The notes under the pieces: model-generated
Seen by the model: the letters and a program-made list of their open reading frames with translations, nothing else
Databases searched by the model: none
What the model was told of the DNA's origin: nothing
Program-made: the position numbers and the translations under genes
Shown: positions 8,782 to 12,727 of the stretch, one piece after another
Numbering within the stretch: the stretch's first letter is position 1
Layout of the letters: every line of letters begins with the position of its first letter
Assembly (NCBI GenBank): GCA_947305655.1
Contig: CAMZEA010000005.1
Span: 1 to 39,567, forward strand
DNA: 39,567 nucleotides
Direction: 5' to 3'
From: an uncultured Candidatus Saccharibacteria bacterium
GTDB lineage: Bacteria > Patescibacteriota > Saccharimonadia > Saccharimonadales > Saccharimonadaceae

Positions 8782-8810
8782 TTGACAAATTTGTCGAAGT
8801 GTGCTATAAT
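8782..8810 (+). promoter_or_regulatory. Full-consensus promoter of the candidate RNA gene
   Basis: TTGACA (8782-8787), a 17-nt spacer and TATAAT (8805-8810), with TGC before the -10 as well. Both hexamers are perfect. It is the strongest promoter in the window by eye, with a predicted start at 8817. Confidence 0.88.
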
Positions 8811-9005
8811 TCACATAAGCATGTTCTCATGCTTGGTTTTTGGGCTGTTCCCCAGTGAAATATGCCCCTTAGTGGCGGGACTCCCAGAACCAAAGACCAG
8901 CCGACCGTAGGTCGGAGTTCCTAACGGAGACGGAAGGATAGAGAGCGCCCCTAATGTGCGACCAATCCTGAAACAACACGGTATAATAAAAGTGAGGTTA
9001 TGAAA

Positions 9006-9041
9006 AGGAACAGGGGGGGTCATGGTGCGTTCCTCCCCCTT
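9006..9041 (+). other. Possible H-type pseudoknot or switchable pairing
   Basis: AGGAAC (9006-9011) can pair with GTTCCT (9029-9034), and AGGGGG (9012-9017) with CCCCCT (9035-9040). The order 1-2-1'-2' makes them interlocked: either a pseudoknot or two mutually exclusive helices. Confidence 0.45.
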
Positions 9042-9115
9042 ACGACAACTATTCTTCCACAAAAGTCTCAACACAATTAACGTCGACTACCTCCAAGAAG
9101 CCGACAAAAACTCTT

Positions 9116-9150
9116 GGCCTCAAGACACGTATGTGTCGCGAGGCCTCTTT
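9116..9150 (+). terminator. Intrinsic terminator ending the candidate RNA
   Basis: GGCCTC (9116-9121) pairs with GAGGCC (9140-9145), and the inner helix GACAC-GTAT-GTGTC continues it. A T-rich tract, TCTTTTATT, follows. Confidence 0.85.
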
Positions 9151-9152
9151 TA

Positions 9153-9181
9153 TTGACTTTTTATCTTAAAATCCTTACGAT
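9153..9181 (+). promoter_or_regulatory. Probable promoter of the ABC exporter operon
   Basis: TTGACT (9153-9158), 17 nt, TACGAT (9176-9181). It starts right after the terminator and would give a transcript beginning about 2 nt before the ATG at 9190. No Shine-Dalgarno sequence is present, which agrees with a leaderless start. Confidence 0.55.
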
Positions 9182-9189
9182 TATATAGT

Positions 9190-10947
9190 ATGTTCCGTAT
9201 TTTCCGAAACTTTACCAAGAGAGATTGTCTTTTTTTGTCGGGCGGCATTTTGCTAGTAGCCGCACAAGTCGGCCTAGAACTTAAGATGCCAGACTACATG
9301 TCCGAGATAACGCGACTAGTCGAGACCCCGGGCAGTGACATTCGCGACATTTTAATGAATGGTGGCTGGATGTTGCTCTGCGCGCTCGGCGCATTCTTTG
9401 CTACCATCTTCGCTGGCTACTGTTTTGCACGCGCGAGCGCAAGTTTGTCGATGAATGTGCGCAAAAAACTCTTCGACAAGGTCGAAGATCTCAGCATGAA
9501 CGAGGTGAAGAAATTCTCGACGAGCAGCCTTATCACGCGCACGACTAACGATATTACGCAGATTCAAATGTTCGTAGCAATGGGCGCACAGATGTTGGTG
9601 CGCGCACCACTCACGGCGATTTGGGCGATTACTAAAATTGCCGGCAAGAGCTGGCAGTGGAGCACCGTGACGGCAATCGCAGTCGTAATCTTGCTTTCTG
9701 TAATGATTTCTGTTCTCTCGGTCGTAATTCCGCGTTTCAAAATTGTCCAAAAATTGACGGATAGAATTAATGGTGTTACGCGCGAGCATCTCACTGGCAT
9801 CCGCGTGGTGCGTGCGTTCAATGCCGATAGATACCAAGAGCAGAAATTTGACAAGGTTAACCACGATCTCACCCATACGCATCTCTTTAATGAGCGCATG
9901 CTATCACTGCTTTCGCCGACGATGTATCTCGTCATGAACGGCGTAACGCTCGCGATTTATGTTACCGGCGCGTATATCATTGCGAACGCCGCAATGCCGG
10001 ACAGGCTCGGAATTTTTTCTGACATGGTCGTGTTCTCGACTTATGCCGTGCATGTGATTTTTAGTTTCCTGATGGTAACGATGGTTTTGATGTTGATGCC
10101 GCGCGCGCAAGTTTCGGCCGGCCGCATTAATGAAGTAATGAAAGAAAAAATCACGATCAAGGACGGCAACTTTAACGACGAAACAGCCGAAAAAGGCACC
10201 GTGGAATTTCGCAATGTGTCATTCAAATATCCGGACGCCGAGGAATATCTACTCCGCGACATATCGTTCCGTGCCGAAAAGGGCGAGACGGTTGCGTTCG
10301 TCGGCTCGACCGGTTCCGGCAAAACGACGCTCATCAATCTCATCCCGCGTTTTTATGACGCGACGAGTGGCGAGGTCTTCGTCGACGGCGTGAATGTCCG
10401 CGATTACAAACAGGAAGCGCTCCATAACCGTATCGCGTATGTGCCGCAAAAGGCCGTGATGTTCGACGCGAGTGTTTCGCAAAATGTGGCTTATGGCGAC
10501 AATGGCCGCGGCAAGACGAGCGAGGCCGCAGTGAAGAAAGCAATCAAAATCGCGCAGGCCCAGCACTTCGTCGAGAAGATGCCAGAAAAATATGACGCGC
10601 ATATTGCGCAGGGCGGTACGAATATTTCGGGCGGTCAGAAACAGCGCCTCGCCATCGCGCGTGCAATTGCCCGCGATCCAGAAATCTTCATTTTCGACGA
10701 TAGCTTCTCTGCCCTCGATTTCAAAACCGACGCGGCGCTCCGCCACGAATTAAAACAACAGACCGGCGGCGCAACAAATCTCATCGTCGCGCAGCGCATT
10801 GGTACCATTATGCATGCCGACAAAATTCTCGTGCTCGATGAAGGTAAATGCGTTGGCATGGGCACGCACCAAGAGCTCATGAAGAATTGTCCGGTCTACC
10901 AGCAAATCGCATTGTCGCAGCTGACAGAAAAGGAGCTCAATGTTTAA
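9190..10947 (+). CDS. ABC exporter subunit with degenerate ATP site (YheI/BmrC-like)
   Basis: 585 residues: a six-helix exporter membrane domain (about 15-310) fused to an ATPase domain (about 330-580). The Walker A motif is GSTGSGKTT (372-380) and the signature ISGGQ is intact (479-483). The Walker B is FIFDD, with Asp504 where the catalytic Glu should be, and the H-loop His is replaced by Gln535 (VAQR). It is therefore the partner that carries the degenerate nucleotide site, as in heterodimeric exporters such as BmrCD or LmrCD. Those pump lipophilic drugs or lipids; the substrate here is unknown. Its stop overlaps the start of the next gene by 8 nt (ATGTTTAA), giving tight coupling. The start at 9190 has no ribosome site and is probably leaderless. 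Confidence 0.95.
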   Translation: MFRIFRNFTKRDCLFLSGGILLVAAQVGLELKMPDYMSEITRLVETPGSDIRDILMNGGWMLLCALGAFFATIFAGYCFARASASLSMNVRKKLFDKVEDLSMNEVKKFSTSSLITRTTNDITQIQMFVAMGAQMLVRAPLTAIWAITKIAGKSWQWSTVTAIAVVILLSVMISVLSVVIPRFKIVQKLTDRINGVTREHLTGIRVVRAFNADRYQEQKFDKVNHDLTHTHLFNERMLSLLSPTMYLVMNGVTLAIYVTGAYIIANAAMPDRLGIFSDMVVFSTYAVHVIFSFLMVTMVLMLMPRAQVSAGRINEVMKEKITIKDGNFNDETAEKGTVEFRNVSFKYPDAEEYLLRDISFRAEKGETVAFVGSTGSGKTTLINLIPRFYDATSGEVFVDGVNVRDYKQEALHNRIAYVPQKAVMFDASVSQNVAYGDNGRGKTSEAAVKKAIKIAQAQHFVEKMPEKYDAHIAQGGTNISGGQKQRLAIARAIARDPEIFIFDDSFSALDFKTDAALRHELKQQTGGATNLIVAQRIGTIMHADKILVLDEGKCVGMGTHQELMKNCPVYQQIALSQLTEKELNV

Positions 10948-12727
10948 CGGCGGCAAGAAAAACCAACCAATGGAAAAGAGCAAGAATTTTGGCGCCGCAG
11001 CTAGAAGACTTTTCCGCGAACTCCGTGGCGCAAAAATCCTCGTGATTCTCGCGATCATTTTCTCGGTCGGCGGTTCCGTGCTCACGATTCTCGCACCAAA
11101 CAAAATCGCGACTTTGACAGACGAAATCAGCAAGGGCTTGTTCGGCCCGATCGACATTAATGCGGTGTGGGCGGCGGCTATTTTCATGATTTTGCTCTAT
11201 GGCGGCGCTGGCCTATTCGAGCTCGCCGAAGGCCTCACGATGGCGCAGGCCTCGAACGGTTTTGCGAAGGAGCTCAGAAAACGCATTTCGCGCAAAATCA
11301 ATCGCCTGCCGCTCAAATTCTTTGACAAAAACCAGACCGGCGATATTCTCTCGCGCGTCACGAACGATATCGATACGATTGCGCAGAGTCTCGACAACTC
11401 GCTCGCAACCTTGACGAGCGAGAGTTCGATTATGATCGGCGTTATCATCATGATGTTTATTACGAACTGGACGATGGCGCTCGTCGCGGTGGGAGCTAGC
11501 ATTCTCGGCTTCGTTGGCGTCGGCGCGATTCTAGGCAAGTCGCAGAAATATTTTGGCATGCGCCAAAAAGAACTCGGCAAGCTCAATGCGCACATCGAAG
11601 AAATATACTCCGGCCTCCTCGTCGTCAAAGCCTACAACGGCAAGGCGGAAAGTGACAAGAAATTTGACCGCCTAAATAAGCGTGTTTATACGGCAAACTT
11701 GCGCAGCCAATTTTTGTCCGGCATCATGCCGCCAATTATGATCTTCATCGGCAACCTCGGCTACGTTGCAGTCTGCGTCACGGGCGCATTGCTCGTCGCA
11801 AACAATGCAATCACGTTCGGCACAATTATGGCGTTCGTTATCTACGTCAGGCTCTTCACTTCCCCACTTTCGCGCGTAGCTCAATCGATGGCGAGTTTGC
11901 AAGCCGCGGCGGCGGCAAGCGACCGCGTATTTGACTTTTTGGACGAAGACGAGATGAGCGACCAGAAGGCTATCGAAACGCGCATCGACAAAAACAAAAT
12001 CCGCGGAGACATTGAATTCGATCACGTGCGCTTCGGCTACGATCCAGACAAGACAATCATCAACGACTTTTCGGCCGAGGCAAAAGCAGGACAAAAAATC
12101 GCAATTGTGGGTCCGACCGGCGCCGGCAAAACTACAATGGTCAATCTCCTCATGAAGTTCTATGAATTACAGGACGGCGACATTCGCATCGATGGCGTTT
12201 CGACGCGCCGCATGACACGCGAAGATGTCCACTCGCTCTTCACAATGGTGCTTCAGGATACTTGGATGTTCGCCGGAACGCTTCGCGACAATATTGTTTA
12301 TAACCGCACAGGCGTGAGCGATGAAGAAATTATGAAGATCATGAAGACCGTCGGCCTCGAACATTTTGTGAAGACCTTGCCAAAAGGCTTATCAAGCGAA
12401 ATCAGTGAAAGCGATTCAATTTCGGCTGGCCAAAAACAGCTCATCACGATTGCGCGCGGCATGGTCGAAGATGCACCGTTCCTCATTCTTGACGAGGCAA
12501 CTTCGAACGTCGATACGCGCACGGAGGAACTCGTACAGAAGGCGATGGACAAGCTCATGCAGGGCCGCACATCATTCATTATCGCGCACCGTCTCTCTAC
12601 AATTCGTAATGCTGATTTAATTCTCGTGATGAACGAAGGCGACATTGTTGAATCCGGCACACATGACGAGCTCATGAAGCAAAAAGGATTCTACGCGGAG
12701 CTTTATAATTCGCAATTTTCTCTGTAA
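10940..12727 (+). CDS. ABC exporter subunit with intact catalytic site (YheH/BmrD-like)
   Basis: 595 residues with the same layout: membrane domain (about 25-330) and ATPase domain (about 355-592). Walker A is GPTGAGKTT (391-399), Walker B is LILDEA with catalytic Glu519, and the H-loop is IIAHRLST (His550). The signature is altered to ISAGQ (494-498). This is the mirror of its partner. The catalytic site is formed by this Walker A/B with the partner's intact signature, while this altered signature faces the partner's degenerate Walker B. That reciprocity is strong evidence for a real heterodimer. The N-terminal 20 residues are basic and lie before the first helix. No accessory gene such as a substrate peptide is adjacent. 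Confidence 0.95.
   Translation: MFNGGKKNQPMEKSKNFGAAARRLFRELRGAKILVILAIIFSVGGSVLTILAPNKIATLTDEISKGLFGPIDINAVWAAAIFMILLYGGAGLFELAEGLTMAQASNGFAKELRKRISRKINRLPLKFFDKNQTGDILSRVTNDIDTIAQSLDNSLATLTSESSIMIGVIIMMFITNWTMALVAVGASILGFVGVGAILGKSQKYFGMRQKELGKLNAHIEEIYSGLLVVKAYNGKAESDKKFDRLNKRVYTANLRSQFLSGIMPPIMIFIGNLGYVAVCVTGALLVANNAITFGTIMAFVIYVRLFTSPLSRVAQSMASLQAAAAASDRVFDFLDEDEMSDQKAIETRIDKNKIRGDIEFDHVRFGYDPDKTIINDFSAEAKAGQKIAIVGPTGAGKTTMVNLLMKFYELQDGDIRIDGVSTRRMTREDVHSLFTMVLQDTWMFAGTLRDNIVYNRTGVSDEEIMKIMKTVGLEHFVKTLPKGLSSEISESDSISAGQKQLITIARGMVEDAPFLILDEATSNVDTRTEELVQKAMDKLMQGRTSFIIAHRLSTIRNADLILVMNEGDIVESGTHDELMKQKGFYAELYNSQFSL

Follow-up and report, generated by a model that had tools for sequence, protein, structure and literature searches.

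We suggest that positions 8817 to 9151 (plus strand) of the window, by which is meant the whole 39,567-nucleotide stretch of Candidatus Saccharibacteria DNA that was analysed, encode a member of a new, fast-evolving, multicopy family of structured RNAs that pair with Shine-Dalgarno (SD) sites. Taken as a whole this statement has slightly more chance of failing than of holding, and it is put forward as the most likely of the readings that can be offered. What can be read directly in the DNA is a promoter-terminator unit, a fold shared with homologues, covariation in three helices, the occurrence of such units in arrays, their linkage to an exporter, a promoter belonging to that exporter and an enrichment of anti-SD sequences.

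The unit opens with a promoter at 8782..8810 (plus strand), in which TTGACA (8782-8787) and TATAAT (8805-8810) are separated by a 17-nt spacer with a TG before the -10 box; the boxes match consensus at 12 of 12 positions, and shuffles of the promoter region contained a mean of 0.6 promoter-like sites. It closes with an intrinsic terminator (9116..9151, plus strand) that can be recognised in the sequence, GGCCTC (9116-9121) and GAGGCC (9140-9145) enclosing GACAC/GTGTC ahead of a T-rich tract, and its CGTATGT loop is conserved in the homologue alignment. The minimum free energy (MFE) of the predicted RNA is -108.5 kcal/mol compared with -91.1 +/- 5.2 kcal/mol for shuffles (z -3.36), none of 100 shuffles folding as low. 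On the strength of this score, of the folds of its homologues and of the lack of an Rfam match, it is very likely that 8817-9151 is a real structured non-coding RNA, for which there are no transcript data.

A sequence-only reading of this region had proposed an undescribed structured RNA of about 336 nt with a perfect TTGACA-17-TATAAT promoter, a hairpin at the predicted +1 and a strong terminator hairpin at its 3' end. All of these held, the first hairpin being formed by AAGCATG (8817-8823) and CATGCTT (8828-8834). Its side remark that strong promoters are rare in this genome failed, as the source genome (795 kb in 38 contigs, its nearest relatives being Saccharibacteria MAGs from sheep, horse and other samples) has 53 TTGAC-17/18-TATAAT promoters, that of the window RNA included, and a reversed control has none. 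It is not the strength of the window promoter that is unusual but the long non-coding stretch downstream of it. Among the 29 of these 53 promoters that were characterised, it lies furthest from the next ORF start, at 379 nt, the second longest distance being 215 nt.

An Rfam 15 scan of the window RNA returned nothing at the gathering cut-off, only chance matches at E 5 and no convincing match at E<=10, and twelve related loci yielded nothing credible except tRNA. The claim that no known family is represented survived this comparison, and the RNA matched none of the models for RNase P RNA, tmRNA and signal recognition particle (SRP) RNA. The genome's RNase P RNA (RF00010; C13:5360-5702, 242.7 bits) and tmRNA (RF00023; C13:9069-9439, 81.9 bits) are located elsewhere, and SRP RNA (RF00169) found no match in the window or in the whole genome, which in principle does not exclude a very divergent SRP RNA.

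Homologous RNAs, about 64% identical, are present at the same location in two related Saccharibacteria, G043 and G037. BLASTN against 150 relatives matched only the first 47 nt of the RNA, in two close species in which the adjoining exporter is 94-95% identical; with relaxed scoring, most of the RNA could be matched in one of the two, at about 64% identity. Common to the homologues, when these are read by position, are GGTTTTTGGGC, a CCCCU loop, GTTCC, GAGGT..TATGA, GGAAC..GGGGG, GTCTCA and the CGTATGT of the terminator loop. Independent MFE folds of the three homologues agree on P1, P2/P3, P4, P9, P10, the terminator and a central domain closed by P5 or P6. In an arm-swap test, each 5' arm was paired either with its own 3' arm or with that of another species, and own arms summed to -260 kcal/mol compared with -185 to -221 kcal/mol for mispaired ones. 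The margins were clear for P4 and P6 and smaller for P3, and there was no discrimination among these three homologues for P2, P5, P9, P10 or P11. RNAalifold saw only 3 pairs changed on both sides because the sequence-only MAFFT alignment on which it was run misplaces the arms; this misplacement, and the restriction to three close homologues, is also why no covariance model was built. We consider it likely that P3, P4 and P6 covary, the evidence of three close homologues being good but not final proof. The regions upstream of the same exporter thus share a fold with compensatory changes, so that the RNA passed the test of homologues and covariation that the sequence-only reading had proposed, and its description as an undescribed structured RNA is supported on this count as well as by the absence of an Rfam match.

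All helices of the window RNA are on the plus strand. P1 (8817..8834) is a hairpin at the predicted +1 whose GCATG/CATGC is invariant across the three homologues. It is followed by the extended hairpin P2/P3 (8835..8891), which carries the conserved CCCCU loop and is found in the MFE fold of all three; the P3 arms pair better on average with their own partner than with a swapped one. P4 (8901..8906/8910..8915) pairs CCGACC with GGTCGG and is replaced by CTGAC/GTCAG and AAATCGCC/GGCGATTT in the homologues, its cognate arms giving -8.0 to -12.2 kcal/mol against a swapped mean of -4.3 kcal/mol. The large central domain (8927..9069) is closed by P5, GAGAC/GTCTC (8927-8931/9065-9069), which is nearly invariant and therefore uninformative on covariation, and by P6, in which GGAAGGATAG (8932-8941) pairs with CTATTCTTCC (9049-9058). 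The arms of P6 in the three homologues are GGAAGGATAG:CTATTCTTCC, GAAAGAGTTG:CAACTCTTC and GAATGAACGG:CCGTTCTC, with cognate energies of -9.9 to -14.5 kcal/mol against a swapped mean of -5.2 kcal/mol. P9 (9012..9040, arms 9012-9019/9032-9040), a hairpin of GGGGGG:CCUCCCCC, is retained in the three homologues mostly by one-sided changes. P10 (9082..9105), GTCGAC/GCCGAC, presents in its loop UACCUCC (9088-9094), a match to the 16S tail.

Two of the pairings drawn by eye in the sequence-only reading are real and gained homologue support, that at 8835-8898 as P2/P3 and CCGACC/GGTCGG as P4. Its AGGAT/ATCCT pairing is less likely, the position of AGGAT in the homologues falling within the longer covarying helix P6. 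The letters of its interlocked pair at 9006-9041 are present (GGAAC..GTTCC, GGGGG..CCCCC), but comparison favours a plain P9 hairpin, and the pseudoknot was rejected, since a loop of only about 1 nt would have to separate its two 3' arms. It is possible that GGAAC is left free for pairing with GTTCC at 8917-8921, a pairing which is invariant and hence untested.

That reading had overlooked the tandem array found in relatives, the separate promoter of the exporter and the anti-SD stretch on most units. In both G043 and G037 the homologue heads a tandem series of promoter-RNA-terminator units, with three more units behind it in G043 and four more in G037, which makes 4-5 in all, and the added units have promoters of the form TTGNNN-16-TATAAT close behind the U-tract of the preceding terminator. 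Such units, from one to five per locus, immediately precede the same TM287/288-type ABC exporter in at least 23 loci of the genus; many relatives have 2-5 of them and the window has one. The gene beyond the array varies (tRNA-Trp plus a small gene, a coiled-coil gene or an ATPase-like gene), and some members of the genus are without units. In eight other genera the gap ahead of the exporter is 1-114 nt, and the arrays therefore seem to be genus-specific. The units, delimited by hand in the relatives on the basis of promoter and terminator, are about 160-370 nt long and hardly align, yet in most of them there is a 5' hairpin part, and a long helix encloses a central domain. When the 5' and 3' parts of 38 units were separated, they paired better with the partner from their own RNA than with those of other RNAs, to a degree reached by 0 of 20000 permutations.

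The exporter is heterodimeric and TM287/288-like according to Pfam and a PDB sequence search, and is encoded by two plus-strand genes at 9190-10947 and 10940-12727. A separate promoter, TTGACT-17-TACGAT (9153..9181, plus strand), lies 8 nt before its ATG, an arrangement that would give a leaderless message. Promoter-like sites between the last terminator and the exporter ATG score a mean of 14.48 over the 23 loci compared with 11.76 +/- 0.24 in shuffles, and in 13 of the 23 no more than 11 nt separate the end of the -10 box from the ATG, from which leaderless exporter messages can be inferred. It is likely, although inferred from sequence alone, that the exporter has its own promoter beyond the last terminator. 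This promoter, together with the repeated promoters of the units, favours separate transcripts over a leader, and in the absence of transcript data the units are best regarded as probable stand-alone RNAs. Leaderless starts appear to be common in the source genome, where 96 of 700 ORFs have a good promoter with a -10 box ending 5-11 nt before the ATG compared with 1 of 700 in a control placed inside coding sequence. Outside the genus, the closest relatives of the exporter are in Firmicutes MAGs (L048-L112), at about 65% identity and often behind a MarR regulator, and the exporters of other Saccharibacteria genera are more distant, at 40-52% identity; horizontal transfer of the exporter is possible. 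In another subclade (L017 and related loci) the RNA units give way to a 42-codon frame, about 330-190 nt ahead of the exporter and preceded by a strong SD, which would encode an acidic-tailed membrane peptide with a single span.

The most enriched 6- and 7-mers of 33 units include, at the top, CTCCTT, TCCTTT, ACCTCC, CTCCTTT and TCCTTTC. The 16S rRNA of the genus ends in GGATTACCTCCTTTCT, and the enriched k-mers are therefore parts of the anti-SD tail. CTCCTT is present in 15 of the 33 units (2.2 expected) and CTCCTTT in 11 (0.6 expected), and 61% of the units contain ACCTCC, CTCCTT or TCCTTTC compared with 13% of dinucleotide shuffles, leaving 39% without a match of the type counted. The motif was identified post hoc. 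Five further units, looked at after its discovery, all carried it, against 14% in shuffles; three of these share a subfamily with one discovery unit and so the five are not fully independent. The reverse complement, a true SD, occurs in only 3% of the 33 units and in none of the further five. In the window RNA, the UACCUCC of the P10 loop is a 7-nt match to GGATTACCTCCTTTCTA of the genus 16S tail and has a predicted unpaired probability of 0.75. Anti-SD segments are in general predicted to be less paired than the RNA average (unpaired 0.60 vs 0.43), a comparison not controlled for the unpaired tendency of CU-rich sequence, and several CU-rich segments of the window RNA, the anti-SD among them, favour translation starts over coding controls, all of them weakly. 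Since several of the enriched k-mers occur in the 16S trailer, the units were aligned to 16S leader and trailer; an origin in the rRNA operon was rejected, there being no similarity to the leader (18.9 vs 18.7 +/- 0.4) and a trailer signal that is mainly the anti-SD itself. As a separate observation, the 16S 3' tail of the genus, as seen in L211 and L212 (G025 and G042), is GGATTACCTCC rather than the usual GGATCACCTCC, and a hairpin and T-run lie about 200 nt past the 16S in both genomes, where 16S may possibly be transcribed apart from 23S.

In the explanation that we favour, the units would be stand-alone RNAs that occur, in one Saccharibacteria genus, as arrays of 1-5 copies, each with its promoter and terminator, just ahead of a heterodimeric ABC exporter. 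In each, a 5' hairpin part would be joined to a large central domain held together by a long closing helix, and the majority would expose a short anti-SD stretch (ACCUCC/CUCCUUU). The RNA would be transcribed and abundant, and its exposed stretch would pair in trans with the SD sites of mRNAs; this pairing would lower SD-led initiation, and leaderless messages, including that of the source genome's own exporter, would escape. Transcription, abundance, action in trans and the pairing mechanism are all inferred, and neither expression nor mechanism has been tested. No specific conserved target was found. Antisense control of the exporter start was also considered and rejected, cognate pairing being no better than non-cognate in most windows; a few p values near 0.02-0.04 among nine tests are unconvincing and not clearly above chance. 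It should also be noted that SD pairing alone would leave unexplained why the units are so closely tied to the exporter and why 300 nt of structure should be needed. A bolder reading, that abundant anti-SD RNAs restrain SD-led mRNAs while leaderless ones stay translated, so separating two modes of translation, is unlikely; judged by promoter position, about one in seven genes of the source genome, that of the window exporter included, is leaderless.

Among known systems, the units resemble most in possible mode of action, and by analogy only, the LhrC1-5 sRNAs of Listeria monocytogenes (PMC4132741) and other UCCC-motif sRNAs (RsaE, RNAIII, SprD, FsrA), which are likewise non-coding RNAs with CU-rich, SD-complementary motifs in loops or single strands and are multicopy, as are the units in many relatives but not in the window, which has one. 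For LhrC, binding to a target mRNA and impeded translation of it have been shown by experiment (PMC4132741). An accessible motif of this type is present in the units, as UACCUCC in the P10 loop and as a family-wide excess. However, the units are longer (about 160-370 nt, as against about 111-114 nt for LhrC) and very divergent where the copies of LhrC are almost identical, and they are bound to a single exporter locus. Neither by sequence nor through Rfam was a relation to LhrC or other UCCC-motif sRNAs found, and the units are not assigned to any such family. OLE, ROOL, GOLLD and raiA are long RNAs with an elaborate conserved fold and their own transcription unit, and have no assigned enzyme activity. 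The units are like them in long elaborate fold and own transcription unit, but differ in lacking an Rfam match, in their much faster sequence turnover, in the anti-SD motif and in the exporter linkage.

The rival that best survives is a cis-acting attenuator or riboswitch-like leader, in which termination at 9116-9151 would depend on conditions, read-through into the exporter being allowed by a ligand or by ribosome stalling on a short leader frame (ATG 9000). This remains possible. The units stay immediately upstream of the exporter while the gene beyond them changes, the Firmicutes relatives of the exporter often have their MarR regulator at that place, and a GAGGT..ATG frame of 25-26 codons is present in two of the three close homologues. 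The exporter is moreover of the BmrCD/TM287-288 class, and because of this shared class a bmrCD-type attenuator is a serious rival: BmrCD of Bacillus subtilis is under ribosome-mediated attenuation, its bmrB leader likewise placing a promoter, a structured transcript and an intrinsic terminator ahead of a heterodimeric multidrug ABC exporter (PMC4191407). Against this, and unlike bmrB, the Saccharibacteria exporter has a promoter of its own after the terminator (a point resting on sequence only), there are up to five copies of the unit, each with a promoter and terminator, and the leader frame is not conserved, having 26, 25 and only 2 codons in the three homologues, the last in G037. An SD-preceded frame of at least 10 codons is found in only 5 of 33 units, and the sole alternative pairing that would disrupt the terminator, CCAAGA:TCTTGG, is by eye not kept in the homologues.

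It is unlikely that the RNAs are decoys of the 16S 3' end, mimicking the tail and titrating a protein that binds it, such as Era or another 30S assembly or initiation factor. In support, the match extends past the SD core in G043_3 (ATTA-CTCCTTTCTA--AA-GATAAGAT) and in G037_5 (ACCTCCTTTCTAAAGA), and GATTACC and CTCCTTTC motifs occur in the first units of several loci. The extended match is, however, limited to few units, the lack of 16S leader similarity indicates that they are not derived from the rRNA operon, and no protein partner has been identified. A structural or scaffold RNA of unknown role, like OLE, ROOL or GOLLD, in which the anti-SD is incidental, is also improbable; large size, an elaborate conserved architecture and extreme sequence turnover with helices retained speak for it, but anti-SD k-mers are the top enrichment among all 6- and 7-mers of the 33 units and the complementary SD is nearly absent. 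A gene for a small exported peptide or small protein is very unlikely: the exporter adjoins the region and short frames occur by chance, but frames are not conserved between close homologues whereas paired arms are, there is no clear retention of the 87-aa frame on the minus strand, where the homologues stay free of stop codons for at most 50 and 77 aa, and of the best SD-ATG frame (9000, 26 aa) only 2 codons are left in one homologue, in agreement with the sequence-only reading that no long protein frame fills the region.

Little is known of regulatory RNA in Saccharibacteria, and no work on it was found in the literature searched. The units would constitute a large structured RNA family of this group, with tandem copies, very fast sequence change and a kept fold, and would combine a fixed linkage to a drug exporter with a displayed copy of the sequence by which the ribosome finds mRNA. 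Such a display suggests an unrecognised RNA-based control of protein making, and if the anti-SD reading of the family is true, it can be tested whether the RNA lets the cell favour leaderless over SD-led translation.

A search for paralogues elsewhere in the genome, which looked for promoter-terminator pairs where long ORFs are absent and covered 784,656 of 794,827 bases, gave two other non-coding candidates, neither of which can be aligned to the window RNA. One (G000:C13:19069-19471, plus strand) has no long frame, no Rfam match and almost no sequence conservation within the genus. The other (G000:C1:37743-38254, minus strand; L145:17743-18254) is a non-coding promoter-terminator unit of about 300 nt, also without an Rfam match. 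As RF00169 finds nothing in the genome, it is possible that this second unit is a very divergent SRP RNA, or else some other housekeeping RNA. It is matched in 43 of 45 genomes of the genus, mostly at 77-99% identity, its 3' half is matched in many other genera of the family, and an anti-SD match, GTATTACCTCC, is present in all full-length copies viewed.
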